Source: Bdellovibrio sp.
Lineage (GTDB): Bacteria; Bdellovibrionota; Bacteriovoracia; Bacteriovoracales; Bacteriovoracaceae
DNA: 36,389 nt
NCBI GenBank assembly: GCA_020720455.1
Contig: DYOQ01000028.1
Location: 1-36,389, forward strand
Reading direction: 5' to 3'
The notes below the pieces were generated by a model. It saw only the letters and a list, made by a program, of their open reading frames with translations. It ran no database searches and had not been told where the DNA came from. Shown one piece after another: positions 17,601 to 36,264 of this stretch (within the stretch, counting starts at the first letter, position 1; every line of letters begins with the position of its first letter). The position numbers were made by a program, and so were the translations under genes.

Positions 17601-17907
17601 CCCTATCCTTAACAAGTCCATTTAGCGCTTCCAGTTCTTGATTATATTTGGTTAGCTGTCTAATATTTCCACTAATTTTACTCTCTTGTCTTCCGATCTT
17701 TAGCCCGATCATTGCACCAAAAAATTTACCTTTTAATTTTTCTGCTACAAGTTTCTTTTTATACAAACCAGCATCCTGATCCATTACAACCAAGTCTCTG
17801 TCTGTTACTTCAATCTTTTCACCACTCTTCCTCTGATCGTAATAATTCTTTTTAGTGATCAACTGGTCAACAATATTTAGTTTATCCTCAGCTATTTTCC
17901 GGTTCAC
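14623..17907 (-). CDS. Giant cytoplasmic coiled-coil protein of the motor locus (1094 aa)
   Basis: No signal peptide or membrane helix. Residues about 1-80 are a basic N-terminal segment (KLVAEKLKGKFFGAMIGLKI). About 85-975 is almost uninterrupted heptad-like sequence rich in Glu, Lys, Leu, Ser and Asp, without the Walker A/B motifs of SMC or Rad50. Residues about 980-1094 look globular (NIVVNISNKKAQRLFVKESR, EINF-like hydrophobics, GGAAWESAKMSVGDKVMSGS). The start is GTG 17907 with ctaaggagt 5-6 nt upstream. It is the last gene of the MotA-MotB-lipoprotein-FliF/FliG-like series, 96 nt after the preceding stop. Long coiled-coil proteins often act as scaffolds or rods; here a scaffold or track for the motor is inference only. 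A sequence search could return spurious hits to myosin or SMC. Confidence 0.85.
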   Translation of the reverse strand: MNRKIAEDKLNIVDQLITKKNYYDQRKSGEKIEVTDRDLVVMDQDAGLYKKKLVAEKLKGKFFGAMIGLKIGRQESKISGNIRQLTKYNQELEALNGLVKDREQQLLDAQLSIDEQIINIEKLKKELVDVSSKIDSSSSELNLKRKVIKTNKKSEQDLSESIGSLKVKYESILGDIGAVQQSLNWQVSFLRDKKAEKDSISKNIEEINLKIDKFKEAISKSKTDALNVESEIKNLTLDLGAHKELLNVVSVELQEKDSEYKSLDQIRSSILTDINSLVEEHKIILGRISDVHKQTKECDGNINKLDLERKEILYKMKNSEQEHDEVKTNLVMLEEMLVEKRYILDGKRKKLSSIITSVSQLQERCTQADIKIKQCDTEFERVDDLKNSALNEQRENSVKLTVLNEQLAKQQSEIDSKFADVNKLVMDVDVLKALIGEKETALGNYRVELDSAESEHANLLGEKQQLKSELSEKVEELDNVRALIAGSAKEKERLMVELEGLNLKNSKIKNEIEGRIKSKDELNAVIFGKKGEVSLLEEESSTLIARSRELLDSLDKESKRLTILEQEKGDIFARIKILKSSIVDTKTSIGLKAQGVADINIAIAAYQNEIVKLDESLSLASLELNDRSLQLSTSMLKHDELLEVKSDLGRKIQATFVEINKINDQLEESNKRKTIILNDIATYEKNAKKASDDLKSKKEMFLSHDEKYQYQQQELGLLVKKCTELRADNADFDRRIGLACDNILQIESEKDNATHELQKALKGLEQRKYKMVELEAEQENLKQLIRDISGKKIEADRSLLVASEEVRLVAVSRDSVNVEYLSSLENLSAVEEESKMLASNLDLINNEISLKQKHLGSVRTEIRKLSKENLNKLQAKEDLEIDHIQLINQISVLETDLSIQKEKGNKLHMQVTQVKKEVDDKQLALETLQGAVDASKVLLDEKIFELATLDKMLPSLSKKLNSEKGKSDDQYLKIVQDMSCHYRNIVVNISNKKAQRLFVKESRRLMEFINFLLDYTDVVTSIGISANGNSALTVNYIANFNQSTDFPKDEAINLIKSFKGGAAWESAKMSVGDKVMSGSISIYEIPSHLEVAPF

Positions 17908-17933
17908 ACTGACTCCTTAGCTAATTCCTAAGA

Positions 17934-17969
17934 TTGCATAAAACAATCTATCATCTCTTAATTATGCAA
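17934..17969 (-). repeat. 8-bp inverted repeat upstream of the coiled-coil gene
   Basis: ttgcataa (17934-17941) and ttatgcaa (17962-17969) are perfect reverse complements 20 nt apart, in the 96-nt gap before the coiled-coil gene. It could be an operator or an RNA stem controlling the last gene; the length is not far above chance. Confidence 0.3.
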
Positions 17970-17994
17970 CAAATACTTCCGTGATAGGAGGTGG

Positions 17995-18018
17995 AAAAAA
18001 AGGCTAGCTTGCCAAGCT
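17995..18018 (-). terminator. Weak terminator-like element at the end of the FliF/FliG-like gene
   Basis: On the minus strand, agctt and aagct form a 5-bp stem with loop ggc spanning the stop codon, followed by agcc and seven T residues. It may lower expression of the downstream coiled-coil gene. The stem is short, so confidence is low. Confidence 0.3.
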
Positions 18019-19926
18019 TAGAATATCAGCATCACTTGACACTGATATCTCACCAAACCAAGACTTAGCTATTGCAAGAGCTGCCTCGCGAGTGATTTCG
18101 TCGGATTTAATTTTATCCTGAACTTTAACGACAAAAGTTCCATATATATCGTCTTTGTGACTATTTACGTACTCCATGGCCTCAACGTTTTCTAAAACAC
18201 GTGAAAGTTCAAACTCAATTACTTCCCTACCCTTCGTCCCAGCTTGAGTAGTTTTGTCTATAAACTTCACTCTTTTATCATCATCTAAGCAGGCAAGAAA
18301 TTCCACCTTAGCATCTATTTGCATATTCTTAAAAATACCTTTTAATACACCAGCAGGAAGTCTATCTATTAAACGGGCCGGAAAACTGCTTCTGATTACA
18401 TCTTCAATAGCATCAAACTGTTTAGTGTCTATTAAAACATCAAGCAAATTTTCTGACCTAATATAATCTAGCTCTTTCATTACTTCTGCAATTCTACGTT
18501 CAAAAGGATTACGGTATTTATCATCCACATATTTTTTCAACACTTGTTTTAATCCTGACAAACTACTCTCAAATTCTAGCTCTTTTACTTTTAATGCAAG
18601 AGAAGTTAGCTCTTTCGTTTTTGGAACATCTAAAAGCAAAAACATCTTTCCAAGAAAATCTCCGCCTACTAGATTTATCAGTAAAGAACCCTCTCTTGAG
18701 TTTTCAGAAACTAGCTTTGCTGCTTTTGCTGGTGTTATCTCAACAAGCAACTGCTGTAACTCTTTATCACTAACAACTGTAACGGAGATAATATCTTCGA
18801 GAACCTGTTGTCCTATATATTTATCACCGCTTGCCTTATCAGCAATTGTCATATCTATGCCAGTTGCTTTGCGGTAAGCAACTCTTTCGTCAACTGTAAG
18901 CTTCATAAAAACTTTAAACAACTCTTCAACTGATAGACGTTCAGAAAGAACACTTAATGCCGTTGCTGAAACCTTAGTATTTAAATTTATCCATTTCTTA
19001 ACTAAGTTTGTGGCCTGATCATAAGATTTTTCTAGATACAAACAAAAACGTTGAACACCTTCACTAGTATTTGAAATTGCTTCAGCAAGCTTTGGAGAAC
19101 CTGGACGCAACTCTGGATCAACTTTATGATCTGATTCGGGCAACTGTTTTTCTTCATCATGTGCCTGTTCTTTTTTCTTCGCCTTATCTTCACGATTAAC
19201 CATTTCGTCCCTTAATTTTTTATAGCTATAAAAGATAAGAGCTGAGGTTACACAAATCAAAAGGGTGGCTATAATTACCCCAACTGGGCCAGTAAAGCTT
19301 ATAAGGTCTTCATAAAAAGATTTTGGAGCTTCTTTATGCAACTCAAGAGATAAAATATCAACTGTAGGAGTGATGTTTTCAAATTTTGGAATCAAGTTTT
19401 GAACAAGATCCTTAATCTGAGATTTTTTATTTTCTGGAACAGAGTTATCAATCCCAATTCTAACACTTACTGCTTCAATATTTTGAAACAAATCGCTTTT
19501 CTCTAAAAACTCTCTTTCAACTCTCTTGCTGTATTGATAAATTTTAAGTTGTAAATCGCTTATTCGCTGATCATCATTTCCTTCATAAAGAGGGGCATTT
19601 AATCCAATCTTATCAAGCAAGATGTAATCATTGCTTACGGTTGACTGCCGCCTACTAGTTACCATAGGGCGTAACTCTTTTTGCAAGCTAAATGTTGGCA
19701 CGGTTAAATTTTGAGACTTTGCGGTAATATTAACGTCCACAAAAAATTTTGAACGTTCTATTACTTGGCCAATAACATCTTCAATCTTATTCTTCAGTCT
19801 ATTTTCAAACTCAACTTTTTGCCACTGGACTGATTTATAGTCATTATCATCTGCAACAGTTGATGCAGTTATTAGTAACATTAAGGCCGAGAAAAAAGCT
19901 AGATTTATACGTTGAAACAAACTCAT
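18004..19926 (-). CDS. FliF-like/FliG-like inner-membrane motor protein, copy A (640 aa)
   Basis: Predicted order: signal peptide (1-25, ending TVA); periplasmic domain with two halves like the FliF ring-building motif RBM3, FENRLKNKIEDVIGQVIERS (40-59, then FFVDVNIT) and AVSVRIGIDNSVPENKKSQI (152-171, then KDLVQNL); one transmembrane helix (about 211-235); a charged linker (236-280); and a helical cytoplasmic region. Segments ATALSVLSERLSVEELFKVF (321-340) and FPARLIDRLPAGVLKGIFKN (515-534) resemble the short-helix pattern of FliG. Thus the C-terminal half of FliF and a FliG-like region appear in one chain, lacking FliF RBM1/RBM2. By analogy it would form an inner-membrane ring facing the MotA/MotB stator. 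Its start overlaps the lipoprotein stop as ATGA. Signal and membrane calls are firm; FliF/FliG homology is motif-level and should be tested. Confidence 0.65.
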   Translation of the reverse strand: MSLFQRINLAFFSALMLLITASTVADDNDYKSVQWQKVEFENRLKNKIEDVIGQVIERSKFFVDVNITAKSQNLTVPTFSLQKELRPMVTSRRQSTVSNDYILLDKIGLNAPLYEGNDDQRISDLQLKIYQYSKRVEREFLEKSDLFQNIEAVSVRIGIDNSVPENKKSQIKDLVQNLIPKFENITPTVDILSLELHKEAPKSFYEDLISFTGPVGVIIATLLICVTSALIFYSYKKLRDEMVNREDKAKKKEQAHDEEKQLPESDHKVDPELRPGSPKLAEAISNTSEGVQRFCLYLEKSYDQATNLVKKWINLNTKVSATALSVLSERLSVEELFKVFMKLTVDERVAYRKATGIDMTIADKASGDKYIGQQVLEDIISVTVVSDKELQQLLVEITPAKAAKLVSENSREGSLLINLVGGDFLGKMFLLLDVPKTKELTSLALKVKELEFESSLSGLKQVLKKYVDDKYRNPFERRIAEVMKELDYIRSENLLDVLIDTKQFDAIEDVIRSSFPARLIDRLPAGVLKGIFKNMQIDAKVEFLACLDDDKRVKFIDKTTQAGTKGREVIEFELSRVLENVEAMEYVNSHKDDIYGTFVVKVQDKIKSDEITREAALAIAKSWFGEISVSSDADILSLAS

Positions 19927-20558
19927 TTTATCGTTCCTTTGTCACTTGCCAGAGGTCGTTTAACCCCTAGCTGATCTTCTAAATATTTCTTCATTTTAAG
20001 AGCATCAGCATTTTTAATATTATATTTGCACGCCATATCATAGTAGATTAAAGAATTTTTATAATCTCTTTTTAAATAGTAAACCGCTCCCTTAAGCTCA
20101 TTTATTAGTGAGCTATATGGATACTCTTCCATCAACTTATCTAAAATTTTCATCGAGCCATCATATCCGCCGGCCCTCATTAAACGTTGAGCTTCAAAAA
20201 GCTCCGATCCGACATTATCAATTTTAGAAATAATCGTATCAACATTTTTGGCATTTAAATTAAAATCATACTTTATATTCGTCTTCCCTAGATCATTAAC
20301 TATCAACTGTTTTGTTTCATACCCTACTCTGGTAACCTCAATGACTACCGGTGTATGCTCATTGTTTAAAACTTTCTTAATAATATCATCGCCAAGCGTG
20401 ATTGGAGTCTTTCCAATTTTTTCAAAATTTTCTGCGCCGACTTCCTTAATAAACACATCAGCTTGATCTGGTGTTGAATTAATAACGATCTCTCTAGTTG
20501 TCGAACAACTCTGTACGCAACCAACAACAAATAAAAATCCCAAAATTTTTTGTAACAT
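19923..20558 (-). CDS. PEGA-domain and TPR lipoprotein of the motor locus, copy A (211 aa)
   Basis: The N-terminus MLQKILGFLFVVGCVQSC ends in a lipobox-like VQS-Cys18. Residues about 22-100 form a PEGA domain (IVINSTPDQADVFIKEVG, IGKTPITL, VVIEVTRVGYETKQLIV), a family found in surface and envelope proteins. Residues about 115-195 are helical with TPR-like spacing (ALEAQR-type heptads; AVYYLKRDYKNSLIYYDMAC, NADALKMKKYLEDQL). The mature residue +2 is Ser, compatible with outer-membrane sorting by the enterobacterial rule, which may not hold here. ATG 20558 has a taggag site; it lies 63 nt after motB and overlaps the FliF/FliG-like gene by ATGA. It may tether the motor to the outer membrane or peptidoglycan (inference). 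Confidence 0.8.
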   Translation of the reverse strand: MLQKILGFLFVVGCVQSCSTTREIVINSTPDQADVFIKEVGAENFEKIGKTPITLGDDIIKKVLNNEHTPVVIEVTRVGYETKQLIVNDLGKTNIKYDFNLNAKNVDTIISKIDNVGSELFEAQRLMRAGGYDGSMKILDKLMEEYPYSSLINELKGAVYYLKRDYKNSLIYYDMACKYNIKNADALKMKKYLEDQLGVKRPLASDKGTIK

Positions 20559-20621
20559 TTACGTCTCCTAGGTAAGCGCATTACCTCTCAGATTTATTAT
20601 CGACACAAAAAAGTGGCACAA

Positions 20622-21518
20622 TTAGTTTTGATTAGATTTTGGTTGTGATGGAATATTTTTCCCTTTTAGATCTCTAAAAAATATCCCTAGGCCTAAATTA
20701 TCTTTAGGAGCATTTTTGTCATGTAATACTTTGATTACCACTCTACGATTAAGTTTTTGGTTTCCAGGAATTGGTTCTCCATTTTTATCTCTATTTTCAT
20801 AAGTTGGCCTAGAATCACCATATCCAACGGCGACTAGTTTTTTTGATGATATTCCAGCTTTTTCAAATTTTTTTAAAATAATTGCCGCTCTAGCAGCACT
20901 TAACTCCCAGTTTGATGGGTATATTCTGTTTTTAATATCAGTATCATCAGTGTGGCCTTCAAATAAAATAGTAAACTCCTCCTTTCTTTCAACTATCAAA
21001 TCAATCATTACTGACAATGAATCTTCAACCTCTCTTGATAAATCAACACTTCCAGGTCCAAACATAACTGAACCATTAAAAATCACTTCGATATCTTTTG
21101 GAGGATCAATTTCTGAGATACCGGCCGTTTTTACTACTCTATTAATGTGTGTTGCTAAATTTTTTGTCTCCGCCTGATTTTTTTCAGTATCTCTTACTTT
21201 TATCGTCTCAATTTCTACTGACTCACCAGTTACGACCTCTTTTTCTTTCTCCCCTTGTGATTTTAAAACTGCGCCTCTAAAAAACTTGGCGAAGCTTTGC
21301 GCTTTTTCCTGAAATGATGGATCTTCAAAATTAGCAAACGCAACAAGCAAAATAAAAAAGCAAGCAATTAACGTCATTAAGTCTGCATATGAAGTTAACC
21401 ATGTACCATCTCTATTAATTGGAGCATTACTGCTCAACTCTTCTATCTCTTGATTTAACTCAGCAAAAATATCAACATCATCATTATCAGGCCTATCCTC
21501 ATCAAGCTTGTTAGACAT
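20622..21518 (-). CDS. motB: MotB-like stator protein with OmpA domain (298 aa)
   Basis: An acidic cytoplasmic N-terminus (1-40) leads into one membrane helix (about 44-64) that begins with SYADLMTLIACFFILL; Asp46 is the conserved ion-binding residue of MotB proteins. A periplasmic linker (65-140) is followed by an OmpA-like peptidoglycan-binding domain (about 150-265) with LFEGHTDDTDI, NWELSAARAA, VGYGDSRPTYENRDKNGEPI and LNRRVVIKV. MotB forms the ion channel with MotA and anchors the stator to the cell wall. The start overlaps the motA stop by 8 nt. The gene sits in a locus without flagellar structural genes, so it may serve a non-flagellar motor; sequence alone cannot tell it from a second flagellar stator. 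Confidence 0.93.
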   Translation of the reverse strand: MSNKLDEDRPDNDDVDIFAELNQEIEELSSNAPINRDGTWLTSYADLMTLIACFFILLVAFANFEDPSFQEKAQSFAKFFRGAVLKSQGEKEKEVVTGESVEIETIKVRDTEKNQAETKNLATHINRVVKTAGISEIDPPKDIEVIFNGSVMFGPGSVDLSREVEDSLSVMIDLIVERKEEFTILFEGHTDDTDIKNRIYPSNWELSAARAAIILKKFEKAGISSKKLVAVGYGDSRPTYENRDKNGEPIPGNQKLNRRVVIKVLHDKNAPKDNLGLGIFFRDLKGKNIPSQPKSNQN

Positions 21519-22299
21519 TTAAAACCTCTTTCCAATCAAGCCGATCTTCATGGTTTAAATGTGAATTTAGCTCTTCCGCTAGTATCGCCGGAGAAGTTTT
21601 TTTAAGAATCAACTTTAATCCTTCCACAATAATTTTATTTTTTAAATTTATTTCCTGGGCACTATCATCAATATTTTCACTTACTGGAATAACCATGATG
21701 TTTGACATAATAACGCCATAAAAAGTTGTAATCAAACAAACGGCCATCGCAGGCCCCATAGTTTTCATTGCATCCTTACCACCAAGTTCTGATAACAAAA
21801 CAATCATCCCCATCGTCGTTCCGAGCATCCCAAACGCTGGAGGGTATTTCCCAATATTTTTAAATCTATTAATATCTATCATTAAGGATTTGTGCATATT
21901 TTTCACTCGATCATCGAGCATCCTAATATATCGACTGTCGTCTACGAGTTCATCGAGATAAAGCTGAACGCACTCTTTTAAAAATGAATCCTTTAATTTC
22001 TGCATCTCAACATTAAGGTTTTTCTTGCTTGCAAAAGCATGACTTAACTGAATTAATTCAGATATAACTTCTGGGAATTTTACTGCTTTACCTTTAATCA
22101 TTCTGTTCATAAAAATTTTAAAGAGGACAAACATTTTAGATGTACGTACAGAGATCGCTGTTGCTGCGAAAGTACCACCAACAACGATGAACACGCTTAC
22201 TCCATCAACAAACATCATCGGCTTATCTGTAGTTAGTCTTACACCAACGATAGTGACAATGATCCCAGAAAATAGCGCCAAGATGGAACCAATATTCAT
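21511..22299 (-). CDS. motA: MotA/PomA-like stator protein (262 aa)
   Basis: Four membrane helices (about 4-22, 32-50, 154-172 and 181-205) with the large cytoplasmic loop between helices 2 and 3, as in MotA/PomA. The block GKYPPAFGMLGTTMGMIVLL (150-169) is the family hallmark and contains the conserved prolines at the cytoplasmic mouth of helix 3. The loop carries the charged segment DDSRYIRMLDDRVKNMHKS, the region that contacts FliG in flagellar motors. ATG 22299 has aaggagtt 7 nt upstream. It is the first gene of the minus-strand motor operon, divergent from the beta-barrel gene at 22393. Ion type (H+ or Na+) cannot be decided here; the short 262-aa form is PomA-like. Confidence 0.95.
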   Translation of the reverse strand: MNIGSILALFSGIIVTIVGVRLTTDKPMMFVDGVSVFIVVGGTFAATAISVRTSKMFVLFKIFMNRMIKGKAVKFPEVISELIQLSHAFASKKNLNVEMQKLKDSFLKECVQLYLDELVDDSRYIRMLDDRVKNMHKSLMIDINRFKNIGKYPPAFGMLGTTMGMIVLLSELGGKDAMKTMGPAMAVCLITTFYGVIMSNIMVIPVSENIDDSAQEINLKNKIIVEGLKLILKKTSPAILAEELNSHLNHEDRLDWKEVLNV

Positions 22300-35844: not shown

Positions 35845-36264
35845 ATGTTTGAATTTCTAAAAAATAAATTTAGTAAAGGCCACAAATCTGAAGAGTTGAA
35901 ATATTACTTTTATCTTATTGATGACGAAGATGATGTTTTAGAAATTGTTTCTGCTCAGATCGAACGAACCTTTCCGTGCAAAGTCAAAACTTTCAATAAG
36001 ACTTTCTTAGCAATCGAATCATTACAACAGGAGACAATTGCTCCAGATCTAATCTACTCTGATATAAAAATGGGCAAGGAGTCTGGATTTTGCATTCGAG
36101 ATAAAATTAAATCTCTTGGCCTAAATATACCAATCCTTTTTATTACAGGCCTTGTTGGTGATGAAGGGTTTGCGAATGGGTATTGGTCAATTAATAAGCC
36201 TGTCTCTACTGCTAGCCTAAAAAAATACACCTACGAACTTCTGAGTAGTGCCGCTTCTAAGTAA
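35845..36264 (+). CDS. Stand-alone response-regulator receiver protein (139 aa)
   Basis: A single CheY-like receiver domain covers residues about 20-136: acidic pair Asp26/Asp27 (YLIDDEDDV), phospho-acceptor Asp73 (YSDIKMG), Thr101 (FITGLVG) and Lys118 (NKPVS), so phosphorylation chemistry looks intact. There is no output domain. The N-terminal 19 residues are basic (MFEFLKNKFSKGHK). No histidine kinase is nearby. The gene lies 20 nt after the second giant lipoprotein and lacks a clear ribosome site; a TATAAT lies immediately upstream. It may act as a phospho-switch on a protein partner. Confidence 0.92.
   Translation: MFEFLKNKFSKGHKSEELKYYFYLIDDEDDVLEIVSAQIERTFPCKVKTFNKTFLAIESLQQETIAPDLIYSDIKMGKESGFCIRDKIKSLGLNIPILFITGLVGDEGFANGYWSINKPVSTASLKKYTYELLSSAASK

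Follow-up and report, generated by a model that had tools for sequence, protein, structure and literature searches.

The 36,389-nucleotide stretch of Bdellovibrio sp. DNA analysed here (contig DYOQ01000028.1 of assembly GCA_020720455.1; the whole stretch is hereafter called the window) carries genes for MotA, MotB, a PEGA-TPR lipoprotein and a ring-like protein of 640 amino acids (aa) that unites parts of the flagellar proteins FliF and FliG. Our data support the conclusion that this module is a real, conserved non-flagellar system with a flagellar motor core, and we estimate at roughly 0.7 the probability that it constitutes an envelope-spanning, MotAB-driven ring machine built on that core outside any flagellum. 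The evidence comprises homologies, the association of the genes, a dedicated group of stators, a conserved charge pair and the persistence of the module in two genomes that lack both FliF and FlhA. The four genes form one minus-strand series (open reading frame (ORF), Pfam and NCBIfam scans of the window), just as a first-pass annotation, made from the sequence, had described. The ends of motA and motB overlap by 8 bp and those of the PEGA and ring genes by 4 bp, an operon-like arrangement; a promoter and terminator scan gave no excess over shuffled sequences.

A FliF-type RBM3 and a FliG-like region in one chain

In the 640-aa protein, a signal peptide is followed by a split FliF-type RBM3, a single membrane helix and FliG-like N, M and C domains. 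Its hydropathy profile displays the signal peptide and a single peak near residues 206–236, and the AlphaFold2 (AF2) models, analysed by DSSP, show a helix–strand–insert–strand–helix–strand succession, the insert lying between strands 1 and 2, followed by the membrane helix and then by an all-helical region. This is the domain order that the first-pass annotation had proposed.

The FliG signal of the window copy is marginal in single-sequence searches, where Pfam returns MgtE_N alone (1.6e-5, just below the cut-off) and phmmer against the Protein Data Bank (PDB) nothing meaningful, but it is clear with profiles, relatives and fold. The profile of the ring C-terminal family aligns with flagellar FliG of the same phylum over 288 columns spanning FliG 15–318 (hhalign Prob 95.7, E 9.9e-9). 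The family member of strain HD100 (see below) passes the Pfam cut-offs for FliG_C (4.6e-10), FliG_M (1.4e-7) and FliG_N (2.1e-5); together with hhalign and Foldseek, this extends the likeness to FliG N, M and C over the whole length. Neither protein reaches the 226.7 bits set as the equivalog cut-off for FliG (TIGR00207): the HD100 member scores 44.1 bits (E 1.7e-11), far under it, and the window copy has no match. Ring profile A3 recovers the flagellar fliG lying beside fliF in genomes G361, G362, G285, G287 and G363 (E 1e-11 to 1e-7), and many of the weaker matches of A7, the HD100-type profile, are flagellar FliG genes themselves, which shows the homology between ring and FliG once more. 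With the whole AF2 model (predicted local distance difference test, pLDDT, 71.6), the best Foldseek match in the PDB is full-length FliG (E 2.6e-4, prob 1.00); FliG occupies ranks 1–12 and 14, and FliF (RBM3) structures come next.

When the N-terminal half is folded alone, FliF accounts for 13 of the 14 top PDB matches (best E 8.3e-4, prob 0.98), and RBM3 is followed by a membrane helix, as in FliF (AF2 models, Foldseek). The ring protein was found to contain neither the N-terminal membrane helix nor the RBM1 and RBM2 of FliF, the signal peptide leading straight into RBM3, and the window copy has no FliF match in Pfam. Variant rings give weaker profile matches to FliF, 0.0046 and 0.0087, the best unrelated control against FliF being 0.093. 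With FliG and FliF as the top fold matches of the respective halves, the earlier proposal that the C-terminal half of FliF is fused to a FliG-like region survives the comparison that had been named in advance as able to overturn it.

A conserved gene unit with its own stators

We surveyed 369 genomes of the phylum. Profile A3 (about E 1e-12 or better) detects the ring in 100 of them and A7 (E <1e-50) adds 14, so that at least 114 of the 369, in 10 families, encode it; the distribution is patchy, and presence in every member of the phylum was rejected. Gene order, whose conservation had been suggested as a check, was compared at 62 ring loci, some of them on contigs that end early: the PEGA protein is found at 59, a small probable outer-membrane barrel at 50 and MotA at 43. 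The conserved unit thus contains five parts, namely the PEGA-TPR protein, the ring, the barrel, motA and motB, and giant surface-type lipoproteins often adjoin it. The first-pass annotation, which had stopped the unit at position 22,299 and called it a minimal stator-plus-rotor machine, was right about the stator and rotor core, but the unit continues with a 206-aa barrel-like, a 453-aa ring-like and a 331-aa PEGA protein and two giant lipoproteins, and "minimal" understates a module in which PEGA-TPR and barrel are near-constant partners. The 453-aa paralogue matches the ring family over 456 columns (hhalign Prob 97.6, E 3.5e-12). Since only 21 of 62 have a lipobox, the notion that all PEGA proteins are lipoproteins was discarded.

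A very divergent second version of the unit, in the order PEGA–motA–motB–578-aa ring–barrel, lies elsewhere in the genome of the window (contig C45; L185, 5669–10105) and, with a slightly changed gene order, in five other genomes; its ring joins the ring family with an E-value of 8.3e-15 over 479 columns. Genome G139, which we take to be Bdellovibrio bacteriovorus HD100, has three MotA genes, at 0.13, 2.92 and 3.17 Mb, presumably MotA1, MotA2 (Bd3021) and MotA3 (Bd3254), the gene numbers being deduced from position. The middle one sits with a PEGA protein and a 577-aa ring protein, encoded at about 2,913,420–2,915,153, whose profile joins the window ring family (E 3.7e-19, 488 columns); the barrel at this type of locus was read in the near-identical genome G145. 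Judging by position, the HD100 module would therefore occupy the stator locus called MotAB2. A HAMP-SpoIIE phosphatase-type regulator lies beside the HD100 ring gene (L233:2673–4424) and might provide a control input. In a two-hybrid test, the flagellar FliL of HD100 bound MotB3, not MotB2 (PMC11323537).

The stator genes of the window encode a genuine MotAB pair, with MotA_ExbB, MotB plug and OmpA domains (Pfam, NCBIfam). A maximum-likelihood tree built from 72 MotA proteins places all 63 ring-linked stators, from three ring versions, beyond one well-supported branch (97/85), and the window stators do not fall inside the flagellar stator group of their own genomes; the set was picked largely by neighbourhood, hence the tree shows separation, not completeness. 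The ring-linked group comprises 65 rows, the two extras being one from G082 and one long branch. The genus of G082 is without FliF and FlhA. A PomA-like MotA encoded on contig C72 of the genome of the window groups with PomA and flagellar MotA. A fourth motAB pair of this genome (L187, contig C5, 5349–6116) is long-branched in the tree.

The earlier statement that flagellar genes are missing holds within the window but not genome-wide: the same genome has a separate set of fliF, fliG and hook/rod-type genes on contig C70, and FlhA on C55. The separate MotA group and the location of flagellar fliF and fliG on another contig rule out a flagellar stator locus that merely neighbours an unrelated protein, a possibility that the first-pass annotation had raised itself and that is also countered by a lineage keeping the module without FliF and FlhA. 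Genome G081 (94% complete) has two modules and only module-type MotA; FliF and FlhA were found neither there nor in its genus mates, which makes an assembly gap unlikely. In G257 (99% complete), FliF and FlhA were likewise not found, and the ring and PEGA genes share their contig with motAB, at a distance of 27 kb. Thus, ring and stators do not occur only together with FliF and the export gate FlhA.

In flagella, MotA R90 meets FliG D288/D289 and MotA E98 meets FliG R281 (PMC12505986). In all 61 family members, the ring column corresponding to D289 (E573 in the window copy) holds E or D, and it is the sole fully acidic column of the ring alignment; the R281 column (window K565) is basic in 79%. 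On the stator side, the column of PomA R88 (R90 in E. coli MotA) is basic in 47 of 51 sequences (R in 45, K in 2). Rotor and stator thus both retain one of the two charge pairs of flagella, which speaks for torque transfer and against a scaffold.

Proteins of at least 1200 aa are encoded by 17 of the 34 full-length ring loci and by 2 of the 20 control stretches (p 0.003), a moderate enrichment. Giant lipoproteins as universal partners were rejected, close homologues of the two in the window being found at 14 of 62 loci. The fn3 lipoprotein of the window is single-copy in its genome; G081 has a distant match to it about 10 kb from a module.

A candidate rotary machine and its alternatives

From these data we infer how the machine might be assembled, turn and transmit force. 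Many copies of the ring protein, which joins half a FliF (RBM3 with the second membrane helix) to FliG-like N-M-C, would form an inner-membrane ring, as homology to RBM3 suggests, the FliG-like domains facing the cytoplasm. Dedicated MotAB units of 5:2 stoichiometry, held on the peptidoglycan by the OmpA domain of MotB, would push the FliG-like C-terminal domain by means of the flagellar charge pair, a stator arginine (E. coli MotA R90) facing a rotor acid (FliG D289). In place of rod, hook and filament, the RBM3 ring in the periplasm would hand the force on to the PEGA-TPR protein and the small outer-membrane barrel, from where it would probably reach the giant surface lipoproteins. Our first, tentative choice for the output is that the machine moves the cell over surfaces (gliding) or moves surface adhesins while the cell is in contact with prey.

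The module shares with the flagellar motor core MotA, a MotB with plug and OmpA domains, a FliG-like region with a conserved acidic torque residue and a FliF-like RBM3 with the second membrane helix. It differs by a ring devoid of FliF RBM1, RBM2 and first membrane helix, by the union of FliF and FliG parts in a single polypeptide, by a locus without rod, hook, filament or export gate, and by its PEGA-TPR and barrel partners and separate stator group. The Agl-Glt gliding machinery of Myxococcota also combines an ion-driven stator of the same superfamily with envelope parts in a gliding predator lineage, but its Agl stators belong to the TolQR type and it is not known to have a FliF/FliG ring. 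The GldLM gliding motor of the type IX secretion system (T9SS) of Bacteroidota resembles the module in its 5:2 ion-driven stators, giant adhesin-like surface proteins and envelope-spanning, appendage-free organisation. It differs in that the module has a FliG/FliF-type rotor, and no T9SS parts were recognised in the window: Pfam and NCBIfam named neither GldL nor GldM among the window proteins scanned, a dedicated T9SS/Gld search not being part of the analysis. GldLM is described as non-homologous to MotAB (PMC13104615). FliF and FliG parts likewise share one polypeptide in engineered Salmonella and Vibrio fusions and in a fusion from the non-flagellated Chlamydia (PMC4768692); the Chlamydia protein, however, lacks RBM3 and has the FliG M region only, and no MotAB partner is described there.

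The motor core is common to the reading proposed here and to an alternative that differs from it on the output, namely an ion-driven transporter in which, as in T9SS/GldLM, Tol or Ton systems, rotation or conformational cycling would power the export or insertion of cargo such as the giant lipoproteins. The enrichment of giant lipoproteins nearby is in its favour, as is the occurrence of RBM3-type rings in channels like SpoIIIAG (PMC4768692), but neither an export gate nor an ATPase or a secretin could be recognised at the loci examined and the conserved FliG torque residue favours torque, so that we consider transport unlikely. The module could also be a flagellar accessory, its stators serving the ordinary flagellum and its ring acting as an adaptor, storage or load-sensing ring. 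Most ring-bearing genomes indeed have FliF as well, and all three MotAB pairs of HD100, MotAB2 included, reportedly contribute to flagellar motility, as a 2011 knock-out study concluded. The persistence of ring and stators in G081 and G257, the flagellar-type MotA that the genome of the window has elsewhere, and module partners that are envelope rather than flagellar proteins make this improbable. A non-rotary FliG/MgtE-like helical scaffold, holding the stator or gating it as an ion channel, could draw on MgtE_N sharing its fold with the FliG middle and C domains, but is very improbable given the Pfam matches of the HD100 member to FliG_N, M and C, the place of full-length FliG at the head of the fold list and an RBM3 on the opposite side of the membrane.

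Several observations, besides the reported role of MotAB2 in swimming, weigh against a MotAB-driven ring machine. The AF2 models are of moderate confidence (pLDDT 71–72, predicted template modelling score 0.36–0.47) and TM-scores are low. The sequence-only match of the window ring to FliF, 0.025, is near noise, within the range of some controls (unrelated profile pairs, 0.018 to 0.7), so that the FliF assignment rests on the fold and the variant rings. About 30% of the fetched ring loci show no motAB inside the fetched stretch, genomes G017 and G002 are without the ring module, and G082 (L184) has module-type motAB and giant lipoproteins and yielded no ring in our search. The E96 column of the stator is not conserved, the MotA E98–FliG R281 pair being kept on the rotor side only. 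Finally, the window MotA, among the few exceptions, has A at the R88 position, with two K nearby.

An April 2026 review says of the machinery behind Bdellovibrio gliding that it "remains unidentified", and regards the discovery of motor, adhesins and force transmission as a major open challenge (PMC13104615). A literature search, preprints not covered, found no paper describing the ring protein. The module is a testable candidate for the Bdellovibrio gliding motor, present in HD100 at the MotAB2 locus. It is conceivable, and we put it forward with more doubt than confidence, that it represents an undescribed rotary class, in which a flagellar-type stator and rotor, the MS/C-ring being made as one chain, are linked to giant surface proteins and the outer membrane, and that it is the long-sought gliding or prey-engagement motor of Bdellovibrionota, the "flagellar" MotAB2 being its stator in HD100. 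For flagellar evolution, the module unites stator, FliG and RBM3 apart from type III export and filament, whether as a derived offshoot or as a relic of a modular past. In this phylum, MotAB counts are not readable as counts of flagellar stators.

Neighbouring genes and other FliG-like proteins

Table 1. Module components and neighbouring features, in window coordinates.
Feature	Position	Strand	Evidence
MotA, ring-linked stator group	21511-22299	minus	PF01618 1.4e-18; Pfam, NCBIfam; PDB PomA/MotA matches; tree
MotB, plug and OmpA peptidoglycan-binding domain	20622-21518	minus	MotB_plug 3.7e-12, OmpA 4e-15; NCBIfam
PEGA-TPR lipoprotein, 211 aa	19923-20558	minus	beside ring in 59/62 loci; alignment A2
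Single-chain FliF(RBM3)/FliG-like ring protein (putative rotor), 640 aa	18004-19926	minus	AF2 and Foldseek; hhalign; MgtE_N 1.6e-5
Split RBM3-like domain, ring residues 33-194	19345-19830	minus	DSSP on models; Foldseek
Ring membrane helix, about residues 206-236	19219-19311	minus	hydropathy
FliG-like N-M-C helical region (cytoplasmic), ring residues 285-610	18097-19074	minus	hhalign, Foldseek
Codon of ring E573, aligned with FliG D289 (torque residue)	18208-18210	minus	family alignment; flagellar FliG alignment
Probable outer-membrane beta-barrel, module component, 206 aa	23871-24491	minus	homologue at 50/62 ring loci; barrel nature inferred
Second ring-like protein (paralogue), 453 aa	24472-25833	minus	hhalign to ring family; FliG_C 1.6e-4
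Second PEGA-TPR lipoprotein, 331 aa	25837-26832	minus	matches PEGA family profile
Exported protein, C-terminal barrel-like, frequent neighbour, 493 aa	22393-23874	plus	26 matching ORFs at ring loci, window counted
Coiled-coil protein, 1094 aa	14623-17907	minus	weak SMC-type coiled-coil matches
fn3 giant lipoprotein, 1491 aa	27169-31644	plus	fn3 1.9e-11; relatives at 9 other ring loci
Giant lipoprotein with ASH/HYDIN Ig-like repeats, 1385 aa	31667-35824	plus	Pfam; relatives at 8 other ring loci

The coiled-coil gene lies directly downstream of the ring gene and, among the loci fetched, has a relative at L092 only. A response-regulator receiver domain protein is encoded after the giant lipoproteins (35845–36264). 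Most genomes of family f1 encode short FliG_C-only proteins (about 143–178 aa, E down to 6e-23) apart from flagellar FliG; the genome of the window has such proteins at C87:7660–7968 and C70:117355–117660, and one of its proteins reaches 260 aa. Another family, of about 760–830 aa, carries a FliG M-C-like stretch and occurs in families f8, f24, f25 and f27 (G349:C4:38000, G348:C40:2933, G019:C11:16735 and others).

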